Shown in pieces: positions 2,153 through 43,838 of a stretch of 43,838 nt of DNA. A model generated the notes under the pieces. The model saw only the letters and a program-made list of their open reading frames with translations, did no database searches and had not been told where the DNA came from. Source of the stretch: a virus; the IMG/VR virus record IMGVR_UViG_3300032665_000067, positions 1-43,838 of that record. One strand, given 5' to 3'. Both the position numbers and the translations under genes were made by a program. The first letter of the stretch is position 1; every line of letters begins with the position of its first letter.

Positions 2153-2215
2153 TCAGAGCCGGTTCCGAGGTATTATGTTTCCGCACTTATCGTGAATGAG
2201 CGCGGAGAGATTCAT
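2153..2215 (-). CDS. Micro-ORF MNLSALIHDKCGNIIPRNRL
   Basis: This 20-codon ORF starts on the ATGA that ends the upstream zinc-ribbon/sigma-like gene. Its first nine residues match the micro-ORF at 1487-1528, and the codons differ mainly at third positions. It has no other visible motif. It could be a coupled peptide or the remains of a longer gene. Confidence 0.4.
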   Translation of the reverse strand: MNLSALIHDKCGNIIPRNRL

Positions 2216-3099
2216 GTGTGTACTCGAATGTAACGTTCGGCGGCATCTTCGTTTGAGATTAAGTCATGAAGCGTACCTTCGCCGTCTTCCCCGAGAGGCG
2301 CATCGAAGGAAATCCATTTATATTTCCACGGCGATGCCTGCATGACTTTTGTGATGAATTTCTTTACGTCCGTCCCGATCGACTCGCGTGTTGCCGTGCC
2401 TTCCAAAATTGCCAAAATGACATCCTGACACATATCGGCGCGCTGATCTTCGTGTGGCCAACGCGGCACAATAGAATTGGCAAACTGGACGAGGTCGGCT
2501 CCCTCCATTTTGGATTCTGATTTTAGGTAGGGGTAGCGCAAATCACCGGAACGTCCGTAAAGCAGCCGTTCTGGCTTTTGACGTTCTTTTAATTGCAGCC
2601 AAGTAAGGCGCTGTAGAATTGCATAAGGCGTTGTGCAGCCATCCTTGCCTTCGGTTTTGGCGATGCGAAGCCGCTGGATATTCGTGAAGGTGCTTTTGTA
2701 ACCAAGCTTCAATTCGGAGCAAAATTCATGGATTGACTTGAATTGCGACGGCTCAAGAACGAGCGACAATGCAAATAGATAATTTCTTAGCGGCATTTTT
2801 GCGCCGGAAAAAACGGTGCTGCTCGTAACGCTATAGTCGTGCCGGCATTGGGCACAGCGCCACCGCTCAAGCTTCTTGAGCTTGTAACTCTCGTTGCTGT
2901 AACAGTTCGGGCACTTCGGGATGCCGCCGCTGTCATACCATCGAATCAACCGAAATCCGGCATCAATCGCTTTTTGATCCATCCCCAACAAATCGTCAGC
3001 CGTTAGAACGCCCGACGCGATGCGTTGCACCGCTGGCGTCTCTAACGCACGGGCCAGAGCTTCGTGACCTTCAAGAGATTGTAAGCTGGCGTATTTCAT
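2212..3099 (-). CDS. Zinc-ribbon protein with a sigma-70-like C-terminal part
   Basis: The protein has 295 residues. Residues 63-85 form a zinc ribbon (C63-x2-C66, C82-x2-C85) followed by HDYSVTSSTVFSGAKMPLRNYLFALSLVL. This matches the N-terminal ribbon of IS1595-type transposases, but no DDE catalytic domain follows. Residues 200-285 instead hold ADMCQDVILAILEG, then ISFDAPLGEDGEGTLHDLI, which closely resembles the sigma-70 segment reading SL(D/N)APIGEDG…L.D. The likely role is transcription control, perhaps of late genes, as a sigma-like or RNA-polymerase-binding factor. That is inference. The ATG is preceded by only a weak GAG site and by a strong UUCG hairpin. Confidence 0.7.
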   Translation of the reverse strand: MKYASLQSLEGHEALARALETPAVQRIASGVLTADDLLGMDQKAIDAGFRLIRWYDSGGIPKCPNCYSNESYKLKKLERWRCAQCRHDYSVTSSTVFSGAKMPLRNYLFALSLVLEPSQFKSIHEFCSELKLGYKSTFTNIQRLRIAKTEGKDGCTTPYAILQRLTWLQLKERQKPERLLYGRSGDLRYPYLKSESKMEGADLVQFANSIVPRWPHEDQRADMCQDVILAILEGTATRESIGTDVKKFITKVMQASPWKYKWISFDAPLGEDGEGTLHDLISNEDAAERYIRVHT

Positions 3100-3122
3100 A
3101 TTTTTTCTCGGGCATCGAAGCT

Positions 3123-3232
3123 GGGGAGGCCGAAGCCTCCCCGCCCCGGTATTATGGCGCGCTACTGCACCCCCGGAGGCTGTTGAAGCCTCCGGGGGTG
3201 CCTTGTCCAGTTAGAGTAGCGCGTAACATAAT
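3123..3232 (-). promoter_or_regulatory. Highly structured leader (nested hairpins, UUCG loop)
   Basis: Reading leftward, a long stem forms from three perfect helices: 3227-3232 with 3151-3156, 3215-3223 with 3158-3166, and 3188-3201 with 3167-3180 (14 bp, GC-rich). A second hairpin follows, GGGGAGGC-UUCG-GCCUCCCC (3142-3123). Its UUCG loop exists only in the leftward transcript. Both hairpins contain GGAGGC and GCCUCC, so they could pair with each other as alternatives. No U-tract follows. The structure ends 23 bases before the ATG at 3099, which suits an attenuator or translational control. The rest of 3100-3312 holds nothing else I can name. Confidence 0.6.
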
Positions 3233-3312
3233 GGTGCCTCCATCTTAGAATGCCGAGTTCCGCTCGGCGCGGTAAAACTGTCCGCGTTCCTTATGAGTTA
3301 CTGCCGGGGGGC

Positions 3313-3585
3313 TTACGATTCTACCGTCAGGTCGTCTATGTCGCCGACCCAATGTTGATGGGTTCCCCACGTCCCGTTGGCTCGATAGCGAACGCCATAG
3401 CAAGAAATAGATGCGCCAGGATTGCCGAAATTGTAAACGCGAGGCTCAATGACCTCCAAACGAAACAGGATACCGTCCTTGTTACGCACGGTCGCTCCAA
3501 TCTCAATGCCGTCAGCCGCGAGCTTTGACTCGACGCGCTTCCAGATCACGACGAACGCCCGCTGAAACTCATTCGTCGCTGTCAT
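3313..3585 (-). CDS. Hypothetical protein, beta-rich C-terminus
   Basis: The product has 90 residues: MTATNEFQRAFVVIWKRVESKLAADG…, followed by strand-like text (GATVRNKDGILFRLEVIEPRVYN, then GVRYRANGTWGTHQHWVGDIDDL). The ATG at 3585 lies inside the last codons of the zinc protein 3569-3706, a 17-base overlap, with GGAAG just before it. In-frame ATGs further up lie within that gene. No family was recognised. It is the last gene before the structured leader. Confidence 0.6.
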   Translation of the reverse strand: MTATNEFQRAFVVIWKRVESKLAADGIEIGATVRNKDGILFRLEVIEPRVYNFGNPGASISCYGVRYRANGTWGTHQHWVGDIDDLTVES

Positions 3586-10390: not shown

Positions 10391-10642
10391 ATGGAGGCAC
10401 CGAAATGCAGATTGTGCGGGACGAGGCATTGGGGGACCTGTGCCACGAATGCCAAGGAAACAATTGCGTCGATAAAATCAAAACTGGCGGAGACCTCGCC
10501 GCAGGTTACGCCTACGCTTGCACGAAATGTGGCGCAGCGTGGTTTATCTCCAGCGGGGGACAAAAATTTGAACTTCGACCGGACAGCCTACCAACGTGAA
10601 TACATGAGAAAATGGCGCAAGAACCGGAAACCCACAGAATGA
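10391..10642 (+). CDS. Zinc-knuckle-like small protein
   Basis: The 83-residue protein starts MEAPKCRLCGTRHWGTC (C6-x2-C9-x3-H13-x3-C17). It ends FDRTAYQREYMRKWRKNRK, a basic helix of a kind I recognise from small phage proteins. There is no ribosome site, but the ATG coincides with the expected start point of the promoter, so a leaderless mRNA is likely. A second frame, 10405-10599, lies within it. Its end overlaps the SDR gene start (ATGA). Confidence 0.55.
   Translation: MEAPKCRLCGTRHWGTCATNAKETIASIKSKLAETSPQVTPTLARNVAQRGLSPAGDKNLNFDRTAYQREYMRKWRKNRKPTE
10405..10599 (+). CDS. Zinc-ribbon protein in an overlapping frame
   Basis: This 64-residue frame lies wholly inside 10391-10642. It reads DLCHECQGNNCVDKIK, then YAYACTKCGAAWFISSGG, a C-x2-C…C-x2-C zinc ribbon. 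GGAGG lies seven bases before its ATG, the best ribosome site in the area. Either this frame, the enclosing one, or both are used. Two zinc-type patterns in two frames of one stretch is unexpected. Confidence 0.5.
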   Translation: MQIVRDEALGDLCHECQGNNCVDKIKTGGDLAAGYAYACTKCGAAWFISSGGQKFELRPDSLPT

Positions 10643-11241
10643 GGCACTTCATAGTCGGGGGCGATGGCAAGGTAGGGACGGCTCTCCGCAGGGAATTAGT
10701 GGCCCGGGGCGAGAGTTTCTGGTGGTCGACCAGGAAGCAAGGTCTGTCGGAAGGCGTCTTTCTTGACCTCGCCAGACCGATTAAGGCGCTTCCCAAAGCC
10801 GATATCCTCTACCTCGTAGCCGCCATCCCCGGATTTTACCCTTGCGAGGCGTCCGCAGAATCCTGGGTGGTCAATGTAGACGCTCCCATAGCCATTGCAA
10901 AGTATTATGCCAACAGTGCTTTTACCGTATTCGTATCGTCCGATGCGGTGGAATGGGCAAGTTTCACGGCTTACGGGCGGCAGAAGATGCAAGTCGAGTC
11001 CTACATGCACACCATTAACGCCGCGATCGTGAGGGCATCCCATATCGGCCCGGGCCACTTCGGGAAGTTTGCCCATGTGCTTGCCGATGTCGGGATGAAC
11101 GGCAAGCCGGGCGTTACTCGTTGGGCCATGAACCAGACCGAACATGATGCATTCAGGAGCGACCATGGTCTGCGGCGCGGCGTCCAGAGGGTTATGGGCG
11201 GAGGGATCAAGCTTGCCAAGCTGATCGGGAGGAAGCGATGA
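10639..11241 (+). CDS. SDR-family NAD(P)-dependent epimerase/dehydratase-like protein
   Basis: The 200-residue protein begins MRHFIVGGDGKVGTALRRELVARG, a Rossmann GxxGxxG nucleotide-binding motif. The active-site set follows: VFVSSDAVEW (Ser/Thr region) and AYGRQKMQVE (Y-x3-K). This is the extended short-chain dehydrogenase type, whose members modify nucleotide sugars. At about 200 residues it is short for the family, lacking much of the C-terminal substrate domain. It starts on ATGA and is followed by glycosyltransferase-like and methyltransferase genes. Together they suggest a sugar-modifying pathway, probably aimed at a surface glycan. Confidence 0.8.
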   Translation: MRHFIVGGDGKVGTALRRELVARGESFWWSTRKQGLSEGVFLDLARPIKALPKADILYLVAAIPGFYPCEASAESWVVNVDAPIAIAKYYANSAFTVFVSSDAVEWASFTAYGRQKMQVESYMHTINAAIVRASHIGPGHFGKFAHVLADVGMNGKPGVTRWAMNQTEHDAFRSDHGLRRGVQRVMGGGIKLAKLIGRKR

Positions 11242-12290
11242 TGAAGCCGATCTACTTCATCGTCACCTTTTGGGGCCGGCAGTACGCGGATTATTTCCGC
11301 GAATCGACGCTTGCTACCCTTGGGCCGCAACTGCGACCCTGCGACAAATGGCTGATCGTCTGCCCGTGTGCCGACCGGCCGGATTATCTAGATCCCAACA
11401 AGTTTATCTGGATCGAGTTGCCGCCAATTGGAGACAATCCGGTCTACAAGCAGCAGAACGAGGGCCAGAAGCTCGCCTACCAATGGTGCTTCGAGCACAA
11501 GGTATGGGCGTCGATGGCCTCTCCCGACTACATCGTGTCGGACAACTATGTGCAAACCCTGATCCGGTTACAGAGCGAAGGCTATGATCTGGTTCAACAC
11601 ACAGCTTTGCGGCAGAACGAAACCACGTTTCGAGCCGAAGCCGGCGATCGCAAGACATTCTCGCCGCGTGAACTCGCGGGATTGAATATTCGGCATTTGC
11701 ACCGCGAGCAGACACCGTTCTTCCAGGGTTCGCGGATGATGCCGTGGCTACCGCCGATGCGGCTGTGGAAGTGCGAAGATCAACTGATCCTGCACTGCTA
11801 CATCGCCAATCCGATCCTGATGAACTTCGGCAGCATCGAGAAACTCAATCTGCGTTGCGTGCGCTATCTCGCGGTGGAGAATGTGTTCCTCGATTACAAT
11901 TTTACGGATGTCAAACGTTATCTGATAACCGATTCCGATGAGCTGTGTACCGCGAGCCTATCGCCGGATTACCCCCCTGCTTGGAAGGAGCGCGGTTCAC
12001 GTCCGCGATGGTGGCTCGATCTTGGCCTTCGCATGTCACGTTATCTGTGGCCGCGCTCCGGTGGCTATGTGTTTGCCCGCGCCGCCTATTGGCATTGCGG
12101 AGAGCTAAAGCACGTGACTTCGACGGAGGAATTCTGCGCGGGAGCATTCCGGTTTGGGCCGCTATCGTTTACGCTCGGCTATCTGGCGCGGTTTTATCTG
12201 TTGCATTTCCTGCCGTTCCTGCGGAGGAAAAAACGCATTAGAAATGCCGTGCGATGGCTGCGTAATCCTGACCTTGTGGGATGCAAATGA
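11238..12290 (+). CDS. Glycosyltransferase-like protein
   Basis: The protein has 350 residues. It opens MMKPIYFIVTFWGRQYADYFRESTLATLGPQL. It then has a stretch (MASPDYIVSDNYVQTLIRLQSEGYDLV) where a GT-A-like enzyme would bind its donor, and ITDSDEL later. It ends with hydrophobic and basic residues (YLARFYLLHFLPFLRRKKRIRNAVRWL), suggesting membrane association. I recognise this layout from unclassified transferases in polysaccharide loci but cannot name a family. GGAGG lies five bases before the ATG. It sits between the SDR and methyltransferase genes with four- and ten-base overlaps. Confidence 0.55.
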   Translation: MMKPIYFIVTFWGRQYADYFRESTLATLGPQLRPCDKWLIVCPCADRPDYLDPNKFIWIELPPIGDNPVYKQQNEGQKLAYQWCFEHKVWASMASPDYIVSDNYVQTLIRLQSEGYDLVQHTALRQNETTFRAEAGDRKTFSPRELAGLNIRHLHREQTPFFQGSRMMPWLPPMRLWKCEDQLILHCYIANPILMNFGSIEKLNLRCVRYLAVENVFLDYNFTDVKRYLITDSDELCTASLSPDYPPAWKERGSRPRWWLDLGLRMSRYLWPRSGGYVFARAAYWHCGELKHVTSTEEFCAGAFRFGPLSFTLGYLARFYLLHFLPFLRRKKRIRNAVRWLRNPDLVGCK

Positions 12291-12928
12291 TAAGACAAAT
12301 CCAAAGCCTCTTGAAACACCGCCCCACCACCTTGGCCTATGTCATGGGACTACCCTTGTCCGAAAGTACCAGGGAACGGGAACTGCATCGCTTGAAGGAT
12401 CACGGCCAGCAGGACGAACGAGAATTGAAGTTCCTGCTAAGACATATCGCAGGTTCAAGATCCATCCTGGAAATCGGCTCCTGCTTCGGCCAGACGCTTC
12501 GTCTGATGGCAAGCGTCTGTCCCAAGGCAAAGATACGTTCAATTGATCTCGGGTTGGGAATCGGCATCATCGAAGGCATGAATACCGGCAAGTATCTTCT
12601 GCAAACCATGGAGGATCTGAAATCCCAAGGTCACGATACCGCCGTTTGCTTCAACAACAGTCACAGCCCCCTTGCGGTGCAATGGGCGCGGAAGAACGGA
12701 CCTTATGATTTCATCTTCATCGACGGCGACCATTCCTACGAGGGCGTCAAGTCGGATTGGCTTGGCTACGGCCCGCTTGGAAAAATGGTCGGATTCCACG
12801 ATATTGCTTCAAAATCAGTCGGCAAGCTCTGGCTCGAAATCAAACGCGACTACAGAGTCATCCAGTGCATCGAAAGCCCCATGGGGGTCGGCATTGTTCT
12901 CCCAAGCCTACCACTTGACGCAGCGTAG
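12281..12928 (+). CDS. Class I SAM-dependent methyltransferase
   Basis: The protein has 215 residues. ILEIGSCFGQTLRLMA is motif I (SAM binding), IRSIDLG follows as motif II, and YDFIFIDGDHSYEGVKSDW with GFHDI matches the Methyltransf_24 group. That group includes sugar and small-molecule O-methyltransferases. N-terminal helices precede the core. The gene follows the SDR and glycosyltransferase-like genes, so methylation of a glycan is the best guess. ATG at 12281 or 12287 could start it. Confidence 0.82.
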   Translation: MQMIRQIQSLLKHRPTTLAYVMGLPLSESTRERELHRLKDHGQQDERELKFLLRHIAGSRSILEIGSCFGQTLRLMASVCPKAKIRSIDLGLGIGIIEGMNTGKYLLQTMEDLKSQGHDTAVCFNNSHSPLAVQWARKNGPYDFIFIDGDHSYEGVKSDWLGYGPLGKMVGFHDIASKSVGKLWLEIKRDYRVIQCIESPMGVGIVLPSLPLDAA

Positions 12929-25376: not shown

Positions 25377-26720
25377 ATGGCTGTGAACGTCAGCGGAAGT
25401 TTTTCTGCCGATCTGGAAGCATATATTGCCGACGAGACGCTTCCGCTCACTCGCAAGCAACTGGTCGTCTACCAGTTTGGCGACCCGGCAACCCTCCCGA
25501 AAGGTCGAGGGGTTACCTACACAGCCACCCGGTACAACCGCGTGCCGCTGCCATTTGCCCCTCTCTCGGAAGGCGTCCCGCCCCAAGGCGAACTGATGAC
25601 CATCCAGCAGGTCACCGCTACCGCCCTGCAATGGGGCGATAAGGTCACCATTACCGATGTGGCGGAACTGACCATCAAGCACCCGCTGTTCAAGGAAGCC
25701 ATCAAGCTGATGGCGCTGCAAGTCTCGGAAACCCTGGAACGTAACACCTTCAACAATCTCCAAGGGTTTACCCAAGTCAATTACGTCAATTCGCGCGGCT
25801 CACGAGCAGCCCTTGTTGCGGGCGACGTGATGAACACCCACGAACTCAACCGCGCCTACGCCATGCTTCTCAACATCGGTGCACCCCGCTTCATGGGCGA
25901 CGAGATGACCGATACCAAGCTGGAAGCCGATGGCGGTGGTGCAAGGGCTTCCTCGAATCCGAGGGCAATGCCGCACTATGTCGCCGTGCTGCACCCATTC
26001 TGCGCGGCGGACCTGCGGGAAAACAGCTCGATCCAAACCGCATGGTCCTATTCGGACATCAACCGGCTCTATAATTTCGAGCTAGGCGAATGGTCCGGCA
26101 TCCGCTTTACCTTCACCAACATGGTGCCATTCTGGACCGGCAATGCGGCGATCACGCCGACTGCCGCTCTGACCGGCTCTTTGGCGACCAATACCTACTA
26201 CGCAATCGTCACGGCGTCCGACACCCAGAATCAGTACGAAAGCCAGATTTATCAGGTGTCGGCAGGTATCTCGGTTACCGGCCCCAATGGCTCGTTGCAG
26301 GTCGTCCTTCCGGTTCTGTCGGGCTATACCTTCAACGTCTATGTAGGAACCTCGAATGCCCCGACGAACCTGGGCTTGTCGTCTGCCGGCCCGACTTCCG
26401 GCCCGATGCAGGGCCAGGCAGTGCAATTGGCGGGTGGCCAGACCGTCACCATAACCGGCCTGGGAGCCTTCCAGATCCCGCCCGCCGCTCCGTCAACGGG
26501 AGTCACCGTCTATCCCAATTACATCTTCGGGCGCGGCGCATATGCCCAGGTGAAACTGGATGAAGTGAAGTTCACCTATTTGAAGGATGCGGATAAGAGC
26601 GATCCGCTCAACCAGTTGCGCGTGGTTGGGTGGAAAACTTATTATGGGACGCTCTTGAAGAACATTCAATTCGCAATGCGAATTGAATCAACTTCTGCGT
26701 TCAATTCTACCTTCGGCTAG
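25377..26720 (+). CDS. Major capsid protein, N4-gp56 type, with an inserted domain
   Basis: The 447-residue protein builds the head. PLTRKQLVVYQFGDPATLPKGRGVTYTATRYNRVPLPF and the following helices (TITDVAELTIKHPLFKEAIKLMALQVSETLERNTF) are the signature of the N4-gp56 capsid family. Residues about 255-375 (AALTGSLATNTYYAIVTASDTQNQYES, LPVLSGYTFNVYVGTSNAPTNLG, QTVTITGLGAFQIP) read as an Ig/fibronectin-III-like domain set into the core, which resumes at VYPNYIFGRGAYAQV. GGAGAG lies seven bases before the ATG. The insertion probably projects from the capsid surface. Confidence 0.88.
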   Translation: MAVNVSGSFSADLEAYIADETLPLTRKQLVVYQFGDPATLPKGRGVTYTATRYNRVPLPFAPLSEGVPPQGELMTIQQVTATALQWGDKVTITDVAELTIKHPLFKEAIKLMALQVSETLERNTFNNLQGFTQVNYVNSRGSRAALVAGDVMNTHELNRAYAMLLNIGAPRFMGDEMTDTKLEADGGGARASSNPRAMPHYVAVLHPFCAADLRENSSIQTAWSYSDINRLYNFELGEWSGIRFTFTNMVPFWTGNAAITPTAALTGSLATNTYYAIVTASDTQNQYESQIYQVSAGISVTGPNGSLQVVLPVLSGYTFNVYVGTSNAPTNLGLSSAGPTSGPMQGQAVQLAGGQTVTITGLGAFQIPPAAPSTGVTVYPNYIFGRGAYAQVKLDEVKFTYLKDADKSDPLNQLRVVGWKTYYGTLLKNIQFAMRIESTSAFNSTFG

Positions 26721-38010: not shown

Positions 38011-40607
38011 TGGATTGGCCCGGTACACCGGAAACGCCTAATCAATCAGTCGCCCAGCGATGGCCGGGAACGCCTGAACAGCCGTCGTTTATCGGTGATA
38101 TAAAAGCCCAAGCCGGTGCGGGTTGGGAAAAGATCAAGCAAGGTATTGCCCACCCAGAACAGGCAGGTATTTTGGGGGCGTGGCCGGGCATTGCCCAAGG
38201 TGCAGCTCAGATTATCGGTTCTCCTATCAGTGCGGCGGGATCGGCAATCGACCGTCAGTTCCCCGTTCTGAAACAAGCCGAGAAGAATGATCCGTGGAAG
38301 GGAACCATCTTTGCCACGCCTTCCACAGCCGATGTGATTGGGACTGCCCTCGGACTTGGTGGCAGCAAAGTCGGCGGAGCCGCGCCAGCAGCAGGCGCCG
38401 CCGAAGCGACTACATTCAAAAAGATATTTTCTCCCGGTACAGTCTCTCCAGAGGCCGAACAAGCAGCGGGCGGATTGCGCGAAGCTTCGGGGACTGCGGC
38501 TCGAAATAGTGCTCAGACACAGGCTGCATTGAGTACTTTTGAATCTCGCATCAATGCGCTTCCTCCAGACAAGCAATTAGGCATCCTCGATTACATGGAA
38601 GGACGCTCCAAAGGGGCAACCATCCCAGATCCAAGCCTACAATCGTTTGCCGACGAATTCCGCAAGCAGATGGAATTGCGCGCCAACAAGATCGCTTCCA
38701 CTGATAAGTTGTCCCAAGCGGGGTTGGTCGAGGACTATGTGAGGCATTACTGGACCGACCCGAAGAAAGCGGAGGAATTCGTCAAGACTTGGTATACCAA
38801 ACAAGGCTCCGGGGCTTCATTGAAACAACGATCCATCCCGACAATCTCAGAAGGCATCAAGGCAGGACTGACCCCACTCACGCATAATCCGGTCGAGATA
38901 GCCATGCGGTACGTCACTAGCATGGACAAATATATTGCCATGAATGAGATGATGACCGCTGGAGAACATGCCGGGACTGTCAAGTTTTTCAAGTTGGGAG
39001 ATAGGGGTATTCCGGAAGGATGGACAAAACTAAACGGCCATCTCTCACAAAAGGGAATGACGGCGGCTTATGCCCCTGAGGATTGGGCGCGGGTCTGGAA
39101 CAACTACGTCTCTCCGGGCGTCTATCGTAATCAGGATTTGGGCAATGCTTACCAGTCGTTTCGCAATGCCTCTAATTTGACAACGCAAAGCATTCTTTCA
39201 TTCTCCGGCTATCACGTCATGGCGATGGCACAGGAGGCTATCACATCGGAATTTGCCAAAGGGATTGGGCAAGTCATCGGTGGAACCAAGACGGCGTTGA
39301 GCGGACTAAGGCGCGGTGATGCAGGAACTATCTTAAGAGGCGGCAAGATTGCAGCCAAAGGTGCGGGTTCGACCGCTGGCGCGTTGACTGCTCCGGTTAC
39401 GTCCTATCTTAAGGGCAAGAAATTTCAGAACGTTTATCTCGGGAGAACGTCGGGGTCGCCGGATTTTCGGTCAGTGGTCGATACTTTCACCAAAGCCGGA
39501 GGGCGCGGAACCGGGAAATTACATGCTCCGGATTATCAGTTCTCTAACGGAGGGTCATATTTCAGTGCCTGGAAACGCGGCTCACTCAAGATGGAATTGC
39601 GCGGTGCATTGAAGGAAATCGCCGATTCCAAGTTTCCTCCCTACGAAATTGCAAGGCATATAACGAGTGCCATTGGACGTTCGTTCGAGACTATCATGGA
39701 CCCACTCTTCAAAGAATATATCCCAATGCTCAAGAACGGTGCGTTTTCGGAAGGCATGAGATCATGGCTGGAGATGAATCCGCAAGCCGGTTACGATGAG
39801 CAGATGGCTTTTGCCAGAAAACTGGTGGACTCGATTGACAACCGCTTCGGTGAAATGATCCAGGACAATATCTTCTGGCACACCCTAATGAAACAAACAG
39901 CTACTCTCGGGATGCTGTCTTATTCTTGGAACCTTGGAAGTCTGCGGCTTGCTACCGGAGCAGCGGATATTCTCAAGACAGCGGGGAAAGCTCTGGACCC
40001 GACCTCTAAGACCTACAGCCCCAACGCCTCATGGATCATCGGCTTCCCAATGGCGGTTGCTACCATGAACGGCATCTATCAGTATCTCAAGACTGGTCAA
40101 CCACCAAAAACCGCAAACGATTTGGTCTTTCCTCCTACTGGCGGGAAGGCTCCAGGGTTTGGCGGCAGAGGACAAGTACCAGAACGCGCGATGCTGCCCG
40201 GCTACGAGAAAGAACCCTTCGGCTGGTACTACAATGGCACCAAGGAATTGGAGAATAAGCTAAACCCATTGGTACGAATGGGTTGGGAGGCTATGAACAA
40301 TTCAGATTGGAGAAACGACCCGATCGTAAGACCCGATCCCACTGTCCCACAATGGCTGCATGATTACTTTACATTCGTTCTGGGAAGCCTCAATCCGATT
40401 TCTCTTGGACGATTCGGACAAGGTGAAATGCACGGTTCAGCAATGGGCAAACCCGAGGAATTTCTTGGCATTAGGCCGGCTCCGCAATACGGCGAAGATC
40501 CGGAGGGCTATGCGCGGGGGATGTCTGCAATCGAAAAGAAACGATGGTTATTGAAACAGGAGCATGACCGCGCCACGCAGCGCAAGTACGGCGGGCCGCA
40601 GCAGTGA
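38010..40607 (+). CDS. Large internal virion / ejection protein
   Basis: The 865-residue protein opens with two copies of WPGTPE (residues 3-8 and 18-23). Mixed helical text follows, with a Gly/Ala-rich membrane-like part (SPISAAGSAID, GGSKVGGAAPAAGAAEA) and long helical domains (EMNPQAGYDEQMAFARKLVDSIDNRFGEMIQDNIFWHTLMKQTATLGMLSYSWNLG). No peptidoglycan-cutting motif was seen. It lies where podoviruses encode their largest ejection protein. Confidence 0.7.
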   Translation: MDWPGTPETPNQSVAQRWPGTPEQPSFIGDIKAQAGAGWEKIKQGIAHPEQAGILGAWPGIAQGAAQIIGSPISAAGSAIDRQFPVLKQAEKNDPWKGTIFATPSTADVIGTALGLGGSKVGGAAPAAGAAEATTFKKIFSPGTVSPEAEQAAGGLREASGTAARNSAQTQAALSTFESRINALPPDKQLGILDYMEGRSKGATIPDPSLQSFADEFRKQMELRANKIASTDKLSQAGLVEDYVRHYWTDPKKAEEFVKTWYTKQGSGASLKQRSIPTISEGIKAGLTPLTHNPVEIAMRYVTSMDKYIAMNEMMTAGEHAGTVKFFKLGDRGIPEGWTKLNGHLSQKGMTAAYAPEDWARVWNNYVSPGVYRNQDLGNAYQSFRNASNLTTQSILSFSGYHVMAMAQEAITSEFAKGIGQVIGGTKTALSGLRRGDAGTILRGGKIAAKGAGSTAGALTAPVTSYLKGKKFQNVYLGRTSGSPDFRSVVDTFTKAGGRGTGKLHAPDYQFSNGGSYFSAWKRGSLKMELRGALKEIADSKFPPYEIARHITSAIGRSFETIMDPLFKEYIPMLKNGAFSEGMRSWLEMNPQAGYDEQMAFARKLVDSIDNRFGEMIQDNIFWHTLMKQTATLGMLSYSWNLGSLRLATGAADILKTAGKALDPTSKTYSPNASWIIGFPMAVATMNGIYQYLKTGQPPKTANDLVFPPTGGKAPGFGGRGQVPERAMLPGYEKEPFGWYYNGTKELENKLNPLVRMGWEAMNNSDWRNDPIVRPDPTVPQWLHDYFTFVLGSLNPISLGRFGQGEMHGSAMGKPEEFLGIRPAPQYGEDPEGYARGMSAIEKKRWLLKQEHDRATQRKYGGPQQ

Positions 40608-41935
40608 AATGCCTCGTTATCGACCCCTATGGCTATGCGCTCGACTTCTCCCTCCGCGCGCAAGCCAACGGCCATCAAATAAAGCACTTCATCAAAAAAA
40701 CACCCAAGACCGATCATATCGGCAAAGGTCTGGTAGAACTGGTTGACGAATGGCAACCGTGGTTCCGCTGGGCGGACCTGATCTTCTGTGCCGACAATAC
40801 AAAATACGTTCGCGAGCTCGGTTATGCCAAACAATCCCATGATGTGCCGATCATCTATGGCGGAGAGGACGGGGCATCATGGGAACTGGACCGAGGGATA
40901 GGGCAAGCAATTTTCAAGAAACACGGCATTCCCACTATACCGGGAAAGGAATTCACCGACTATGATGCAGCAATCGCCCACGTCAAAAAACACGATCAGC
41001 GATTTGTCTCCAAGCCCAACGGTGACGAAGGTGATAAAAGTCTATCCTACGTCTCCAAATCTCCCTCCGATATGGTCTATATGCTGGAGCGATGGAAGCG
41101 TCTCGGTAAGCTCAAATCATCCTTTATCCTCCAGGAATTCGTCCCAGGTACAGAAATGGCTGTCGGAGGGTGGTTCGGTCCAGGAGGCTTCAATGAAGGA
41201 TGGTGCGAGAACTTCGAGTTCAAGAAACTGATGAATGGCGACATCGGCCCGGCGACGGGCGAAATGGGAACGGTCCTCCGCTACGTCAAACAATCCAAAC
41301 TCGCCAAGAAAGTCCTCGCTCCAATGGAGCAGGAACTATCGAAGATCGGTTATGTCGGCTATGTTGATGTGAACTGCATCATAGACGAAAAGGGCAACCC
41401 ATGGCCGTTGGAATGGACGACCCGTCCTGGATACCCGACACTAAACATCCAGCAACCCTTGCATGACGGGGACATGGTCGAATGGCTGATGAATCTGGCG
41501 AAGGGAATGGACAGCCGCAATCTGATCTACGACAAGATAGCGGTGGGGATAGTCATAGCGATCCCGGACTTCCCGTACAGCCACCTAACTCGGAAGGAAG
41601 TGGTGGGAGTGCCGATCTACGGCCTGACGCAAAGCCTGTTGAAACACTTCCACCCATGCGAGATGCAATTGGGGGAGGACATCCCAAGCCTAGAAGGGGG
41701 CGTCCTCCTAAGAACTCCCATGTTGACAACAGCGGGGGATTACGTCGCGGTGATGACGGCGATCGCAGGCACCGTAAAAGACGCGGCATTGACGGCGCAG
41801 CGGAGGATCGAGAAACTTACGGTGCCGAACTCGCTGCTACACAGAACGGATATTGGTCGTCGTCTAGCGAAGCAGCTTCCTTTGATCCAAAAGAATGGTT
41901 TCGCGGCGGGGATGATGTTCTCAGCGACAAGCTAG
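40604..41935 (+). CDS. PurD-like ATP-grasp ligase
   Basis: The protein has 443 residues. ATP-grasp signs are QAIFKKHGIPTIPGKEF, FVSKPNGDEGDKS (K137), LQEFVPGTEMAVGGWF (E178, E184), VDVNCII (D255, N257) and PLEWTTRPGYPT (E270). The order and the late HRTDIGRRL match phosphoribosylamine-glycine ligase (PurD), which forms an amide bond with glycine at the cost of ATP. The PurD substrate loops are poorly kept, so the phage enzyme may join another amine and acid. GTG start overlaps the previous stop. The last 454 bases are shared with another frame (41482-42186). Confidence 0.75.
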   Translation: MKCLVIDPYGYALDFSLRAQANGHQIKHFIKKTPKTDHIGKGLVELVDEWQPWFRWADLIFCADNTKYVRELGYAKQSHDVPIIYGGEDGASWELDRGIGQAIFKKHGIPTIPGKEFTDYDAAIAHVKKHDQRFVSKPNGDEGDKSLSYVSKSPSDMVYMLERWKRLGKLKSSFILQEFVPGTEMAVGGWFGPGGFNEGWCENFEFKKLMNGDIGPATGEMGTVLRYVKQSKLAKKVLAPMEQELSKIGYVGYVDVNCIIDEKGNPWPLEWTTRPGYPTLNIQQPLHDGDMVEWLMNLAKGMDSRNLIYDKIAVGIVIAIPDFPYSHLTRKEVVGVPIYGLTQSLLKHFHPCEMQLGEDIPSLEGGVLLRTPMLTTAGDYVAVMTAIAGTVKDAALTAQRRIEKLTVPNSLLHRTDIGRRLAKQLPLIQKNGFAAGMMFSATS

Positions 41936-43569: not shown

Positions 43570-43763
43570 AACGGTTTGCCTTCCAAGCGTTTGTTGCGGG
43601 CTTTTTTCTTATCGGGGTATTTTCCCCCATGTTTACCCTCTTTGCGCTTTTCCGACAACATGATAGCGACCGCCTGCTTTTGATTCTTGACCTTGGGGCC
43701 ACTCTTTGAGCCGGAACGGAGTTGGCCCTTTTTCCATTTGCCCATGACTTGATTTGACGGCAT
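43566..43763 (-). CDS. DUF6496-like small basic protein
   Basis: The 65-residue protein reads MPSNQVMGKWKKGQLRSGSKSGPKVKNQKQAVAIMLSEKRK, and KYPDKKKARNKRLEGKPL at the end. The G-x-K-V-x-x-x-K-Q-A-x-A-I-x-L-S-E segment matches DUF6496-type proteins, which are small, basic and common on plasmids and phages; their role is unknown. The last 13 residues equal those of 35049-35183. AGGAGA precedes the ATG. The gene crosses the linearisation point, and its start is repeated at 1-105. Confidence 0.75.
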   Translation of the reverse strand: MPSNQVMGKWKKGQLRSGSKSGPKVKNQKQAVAIMLSEKRKEGKHGGKYPDKKKARNKRLEGKPL

Positions 43764-43838
43764 ATCATTCTCCTGTTGGTTATGGCCCCGTCTTTCCGCC
43801 CTTACGCCGCGAAAGTGAGCGTTTCTTGGATCGGCCGC
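43659..43838. repeat. Terminal direct repeat, right copy
   Basis: This copy matches positions 1-180 except for C at 43786, where the left copy has T at 128. It contains the first part of the leftward gene 43566-43763 and the end of the gene complete at 122-295. Confidence 0.95.

Follow-up and report, generated by a model that had tools for sequence, protein, structure and literature searches.

A phage protein with an IS1595-type zinc ribbon and a sigma-like C-terminal domain that recurs behind varied DNA-binding heads

Introduction

The late sigma factor of phage T4, gp55, which functions with gp33, is described as a small sigma-70 family protein that has diverged strongly and docks via sigma domain 2, with domain 4 not being part of the same protein (PMC2988020). 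Thus, a very divergent phage sigma factor without a domain 4 of its own can run late genes. In Bacillus subtilis, SigO-RsoA is presented as a split sigma factor, with sigma2 but not sigma4 in one polypeptide (PMC8103513), and the minimal sigma factor of jumbo phages, which has a single HTH, is described as a phage factor that uses host RNA polymerase (RNAP; PMC7824862). As for the contacts themselves, sigma domain 2 is reported to dock on the beta-prime coiled coil (PMC2988020), and region 3.2, the sigma finger, to enter the active-site cleft and contact the template strand (PMC8103513).

Here we describe P0001, a protein encoded in an IMG/VR phage record of 43,838 nucleotides, the whole of which is called the window below. 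Whereas gp55 lacks a fused DNA-binding head and has a sliding-clamp motif at its C-terminus, P0001 has a transposase-type head at its N-terminus and a finger motif near its C-terminus. The sigma4 partner in SigO-RsoA is a separate protein, whereas P0001 has no known sigma4 partner. The jumbo-phage factor retains a region-4-like HTH, whereas P0001 appears to retain the sigma2/finger side.

Results

The P0001 Gene and Its N-Terminal Head

An earlier note on this DNA, made from the letters alone, had described the open reading frame at 2212-3099 as a transposase-type zinc ribbon joined to a sigma-70-like segment. We confirmed the frame, which begins with ATG and lies on the minus strand, a point missing from that note. 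The gene and its parts are as follows.

2212-3099, minus strand: gene for P0001, 295 aa (IS1595-type ribbon/HTH head and sigma-like C-terminal domain)
2839-2967, minus strand: Zn_ribbon_IS1595, residues 45-87 (C63, C66, C82, C85); Pfam PF12760, E 3.9e-8
2650-2838, minus strand: post-ribbon IS1595-type segment, residues 88-150 (SVTSSTVF...KMPLR...); BLASTP to L007
2515-2649, minus strand: linker, residues 151-195, at the position of the transposase DDE domain, which is absent
2215-2526, minus strand: C-terminal domain, residues 192-295, common to 40 other aligned proteins; AlphaFold2 pLDDT 84.1
2380-2505, minus strand: sigma 2.1-2.2-like helical part, residues 199-240, with ADMCQD at 221-226; hhalign, VIA-align
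2245-2316, minus strand: sigma-finger (region 3.2)-like motif, residues 262-285, close to the C-terminus

The four cysteines and the SVTSSTVF segment (residues 90-97) stand exactly where they had been placed, and their assignment to an IS1595 ribbon holds. Zn_ribbon_IS1595 is a significant Pfam match (33.6 bits vs a cut-off of 25.4), and residues 14-147 align by BLASTP to a full IS1595 transposase, L007, with 33% identity and a pair E of 8e-20. The post-ribbon segment is likely the DNA-binding part of the transposase N-terminus, a putative HTH. The ribbon and the segment following it are thus common to P0001 and the IS1595-family transposases. These transposases carry DDE_Tnp_IS1595, which is present in L007 at E 3.8e-38, whereas PF12762 gave no match in the one record searched, the phage genome. 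Between the HTH and the C-terminal domain there is a gap of only ~45 residues. Both results agree with the earlier statement that no DDE domain is present and argue against a hidden RNase H-like fold. As the DDE domain is missing, P0001 was rejected as a transposase.

PHROGs matches of P0001 were to families of unknown function only. One near-identical relative of the whole protein was found, on another contig from this phage, and none was found in genome contigs.

The C-Terminal Domain of P0001

The sequence SFDAPLGEDGEGTLHDLI forms residues 264-281 of P0001, after which 14 residues remain. The sigma-70 signature that had been reported near the end of the protein is convincing at the level of the family described below but only suggestive for P0001 alone (E 0.006-0.08): the whole protein matches Sigma70_r3 at E 0.08 and RpoD_Cterm at E 0.046, and the C-terminal piece by itself matches them at E 0.012 and E 0.006. 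Sigma region 4, which recognises the -35 element and binds the beta flap, is absent, with no Pfam match of P0001 to Sigma70_r4 at E<=10, and PF04542 (Sigma70_r2) had no match in the phage record at E<=1. In ECF sigma factors the AED-L-V-[QS]-type motif contacts the clamp; ADMCQD occupies its place in P0001. Regions 2.3-2.4 look shortened, which makes recognition of a -10 element doubtful.

The finger segment of RpoS, RpoD and RpoH (region 3.1-3.2), S-L-D-x-P-x-G-x-D-G-x-x-T-L-x-D, is common to the domain family together with the helix preceding it. Unlike these sigma factors, P0001 has no region 4 and matches region 2 only weakly.

Members and Distribution of the Domain

The C-terminal domain recurs in other proteins. 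It comprises ~90 residues, lies near the protein C-terminus in every aligned case (41 members aligned), and has a consensus of roughly ..Y..I..AVPR.LP...RDD.IS...LA.LEG......I...VK.F....NR.F....SLD.PL.DDG..TL.DTI... The domain was previously unnamed. For none of the 41 domains does any Pfam or NCBIfam model, sigma models included, attain its curated cut-off, and present annotation therefore overlooks the members, which pass as "hypothetical protein". Few of the 41 have a sigma-model match even when E is relaxed to <=1. We found no earlier description of the domain or its member proteins, and no experiment on any member, in the open-access PMC literature.

A search with the P0001 C-terminus gave marginal matches, E 6 and 8, in the Brevundimonas phages Leszy and Delta, both at the end of proteins that are similar in length to P0001 and have unrelated N-termini. 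DNA patterns derived from these few residues were used to find further phage members; 20 of the 60 stretches from one such search were confirmed by profile. A region-2 DNA pattern yielded 23 stretches in genome contigs, none with the domain in frame.

Among phages, members occur in IMG/VR records and in three that have been cultured, Delta (gp104), Leszy and Ochrobactrum phage POI1126. Microvirga and Mesorhizobium plasmids carry members too, and the bacterial genomes searched by profile yielded them in a few Hyphomicrobiales. Some of the genome members are phage-borne: the genome protein L065 includes the entire L159 from an IMG/VR contig. As the genome searches sampled 347, 119, 337 and 349 genomes, and only the best candidates were scored in many, the range of hosts given here is a minimum. 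The 41-row alignment leaves out the near-duplicates L010, L065 and L142, a member with a frame shift that cuts the domain (L089) and a weak, partial one (L075); POI1126 gp56 was found after it had been built. Excluded from member counts as true sigma factors were L037-L039, L041, L042, L056, L070, L078 and L081-L086.

Relationship to Sigma Factors

The profiles used in the genome searches were built without sigma factors, with thresholds of E 0.01 in one search and 0.001 in the others. All nine non-member loci that they detected (L056, L070, L078, L081-L086) are sigma-70 factors. The 41-member profile gave 11 matches up to E 10 among 177,635 PDB sequences, of which ranks 1-7 are SigA, SigB and five RpoS, the best at E 0.003. 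The viral sigma factor L038 aligns over model positions 26-89, corresponding to region 2.2 to the finger. Thus, outside the family an independent profile finds sigma factors, in line with the sigma-like reading of the segment in the earlier note.

We compared the domain with sigma factors by hhalign. A first sigma set scored 57.3, but this value is biased because the set had partly been chosen by the finger motif. We therefore used 8 RpoD/RpoH and 22 ECF sequences taken, independently of the motif, from three genomes searched with PF04542. Against RpoD/RpoH the full domain scored 27.5 (maximum of 80 column shuffles, 19.5) and the finger half gave P 1.8e-4, while the N-terminal half, at 16.3, stayed below the shuffle maximum of 19.1. 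Against the ECF factors the N-terminal half (region 2.1-2.2) scored 20.4, where 80 column shuffles reached at most 18.1; the full domain, also at 20.4, fell below its shuffle maximum of 20.6.

Structure prediction, which had been proposed as a check, gave a divided answer. The AlphaFold2 model of the C-terminal domain, built with 22 sequences, has a pLDDT of 84.1. Foldseek found no significant PDB match for either structure model, whereas in VIA-align two sigma factors headed the 15 chains, both over model residues up to 72, with Z ~4, which is below the level that the tool calls trustworthy for helical folds. They are ShbA (Z 4.2, 69 aligned, rmsd 3.6) and a PDB entry titled RPSH-RPOB (Z 4.0, 63 aligned, rmsd 3.3), in which RPSH is presumably sigma-H. 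With a first, poorer model the sigma factor HrdB was retrieved at Z 2.6. In BFVD the best match was A0A6B9SWJ1 (E 0.037, prob 0.99), whose 274 aa equal the length of the Delta protein; another match there was an Alteromonas phage HTH protein at E 1.4.

From these comparisons, homology of the finger half to sigma region 3.1-3.2 is well supported at the sequence level. Homology of the N-terminal half to sigma2 is tentative, given the weak match to ECF region 2.1-2.2.

Varied DNA-Binding Heads

The conserved C-terminal domain is found in dozens of phage proteins, behind DNA-binding heads that differ from the ribbon of P0001. Among 21 full-length members scanned against Pfam, the heads of 11 contain a domain of a DNA-binding type that scores above its curated cut-off, as listed here.

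Zn_ribbon_IS1595 head, above the Pfam cut-off: P0001
HTH_23 head, above the Pfam cut-off: L013, L127, L133, L137, L087
Sf6_terminase head, above the Pfam cut-off: L040, L066, L077, L159
NUMOD4 head, above the Pfam cut-off: L145

Two more (L012, L176) have such a domain just under the cut-off. The remaining eight have no recognised Pfam DNA-binding domain; some of them show Cys/His patterns that we judged by eye to be zinc-binding. L087, from a human faecal phage (MT835519.1), is very long, with HTH and Cys-rich segments in an array followed by the sigma-like domain at its end. In L040, L066, L077 and L159 a head that matches the HTH of the Sf6 terminase small subunit is fused to the sigma-like tail, suggesting from sequence that packaging-type HTHs may have been recruited as DNA-binding heads.

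The 5′ Region of the Gene and the Phage Genome

Two hairpins were found in the 5′ region of the P0001 gene.

3123-3142, minus strand: hairpin GGGGAGGC-TTCG-GCCTCCCC
3167-3201, minus strand: 15-bp perfect GC-rich hairpin

Both are very stable; the fold of 3090-3320 on the minus strand has a z of -7.57. Elsewhere in the record, a perfect, short-looped stem of at least 9 bp occurs just once, at 26664-26688. The hairpins could be a terminator, an attenuator or an operator. Similar hairpins were not seen near the ORF starts of 28 relatives, for which the ORF starts are approximate and 3 stretches are shorter than 120 bases. Rfam gave no match anywhere in the window.

A direct terminal repeat of 180 bases with one mismatch (1-180 and 43659-43838) makes a circular or terminally redundant genome probable and leaves ~43,658 unique bases. 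The P0001 gene belongs to a leftward gene set. The rightward set starts near 10.6 kb, is ~31 kb long and includes terminase, head-tail adaptor-like and major head protein genes. It begins, ahead of the terminase, with genes for a sugar-nucleotide epimerase-like protein (a weak match) and a methyltransferase (10612-12928, plus strand), and near its end, at 40604-41935 on the plus strand, encodes an ATP-grasp protein resembling phosphoribosylglycinamide synthetase (GARS_A, E 2.4e-10).

Discussion

P0001 is neither a transposase nor a canonical sigma factor. The resemblance to sigma factors, if right, makes the domain a rearranged sigma relative and not a new kind of machine. We put at about even the chance that P0001 serves the phage as a transcription factor that is derived from sigma, is directed to DNA and binds RNA polymerase. 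In such a factor the IS1595-type ribbon and HTH, derived from a transposase but lacking its nuclease, would select a DNA site, and the C-terminal domain would be a reduced sigma module. The sigma 2.1-2.2-like helical part would dock on the beta-prime clamp helices and the finger segment would then extend toward the active centre. As P0001 has no sigma region 4, the transplanted head would supply the promoter-upstream contact that sigma4 usually makes. P0001 would bring host RNAP to phage promoters or hold it there, as a sigma substitute or a co-factor, and by analogy with T4 gp55 this is its likeliest action.

From the present comparisons we infer RNAP binding, positive action, promoter choice and control of a late operon. 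For the last, the earlier note had argued that a phage without an RNA polymerase gene could turn on its long late operon with a sigma-like switch factor. The ORFs scanned are consistent with the lack of such a gene, though PF00940 gave no match in control genomes either, and a late-operon role of P0001 is possible from the gene arrangement.

It is unlikely that the C-terminal domain is an unrelated small helical domain, serving oligomerisation, packaging or another DNA-related task, in which the likeness to the SLD...DG..TL.D finger arose by convergence. The failure of every model to reach a curated sigma cut-off and the lack of a significant Foldseek match would fit such an origin, and the Sf6_terminase heads of some members also suit a packaging role; however, the non-members in the genome-wide scans were sigma factors in 9 of 9 cases, as were the top 7 PDB sequence matches, and a sigma2-like part followed by a finger part is the order found in sigma factors. 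If the tail does bind RNAP at the sigma sites, it might do so as a competitor or roadblock that displaces host sigma, so that host, or phage early, transcription is shut down, or that represses at DNA-bound sites. The predicted contacts are those of host sigma, so that binding would be mutually exclusive, and the absent region 4 and shortened 2.3-2.4 suit a ligand that does not initiate. The Delta and POI1126 members also lie in clusters of small genes, distant from the structural genes. Mere competition, however, needs no kept finger motif, and action at specific sites is implied by the variety of DNA-binding heads; we consider this reading distinctly improbable.

A DNA-binding head with an RNAP-binding tail would also be a suitable kit for an antiterminator or elongation factor that, like lambda Q, is DNA-bound and loads onto RNAP, and the ~31 kb rightward gene set would offer it a long late operon. 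The sigma finger occupies the path of the nascent RNA, though, which fits initiation and not elongation, and no Q-like similarity was seen in the domain searches of P0001, making such a factor very unlikely. In Alphaproteobacteria, PhyR targets an anti-sigma factor. It is reported to have a sigma-like domain (PMC8103513), a precedent that, with a domain family largely in Alphaproteobacteria, would allow P0001 to be a sigma mimic that titrates an anti-sigma factor. Neither the conservation of the finger instead of region 4 nor the fusion to DNA-binding heads is expected of such a decoy, and we regard this role as highly improbable. Decay of an IS1595 transposase, finally, is scarcely credible as the origin of P0001: the ribbon and HTH match IS1595, but the frame is open, without stops, and the place of the DDE domain is taken by a domain conserved in 40 proteins with unrelated heads. 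This conserved C-terminal domain refutes a decayed transposase.

Returning to a sigma-derived factor that binds RNAP, we consider it somewhat doubtful, though worth stating, that the family represents a hitherto unnamed class of modular, sigma-like phage initiation factors that have dropped sigma4, are targeted to promoters via interchangeable mobile-element heads and have a reversed domain order. The N-terminal heads would be the transposase ribbon, terminase-type HTHs, NUMOD4 and HTH arrays, with the conserved sigma2/finger module near the C-terminus. As members are present in the cultured phages Delta, Leszy and POI1126, the domain can be tested in laboratory strains.

Taken together, a shared tail on varied heads points to a route, so far unstudied, by which phages could steer host transcription. 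Should the tail work as a sigma module, then phages and other mobile elements, chiefly alphaproteobacterial ones, would own numerous separately assembled factors with the potential to redirect host RNAP, and the swapping of heads would be a natural experiment in changing promoter specificity.
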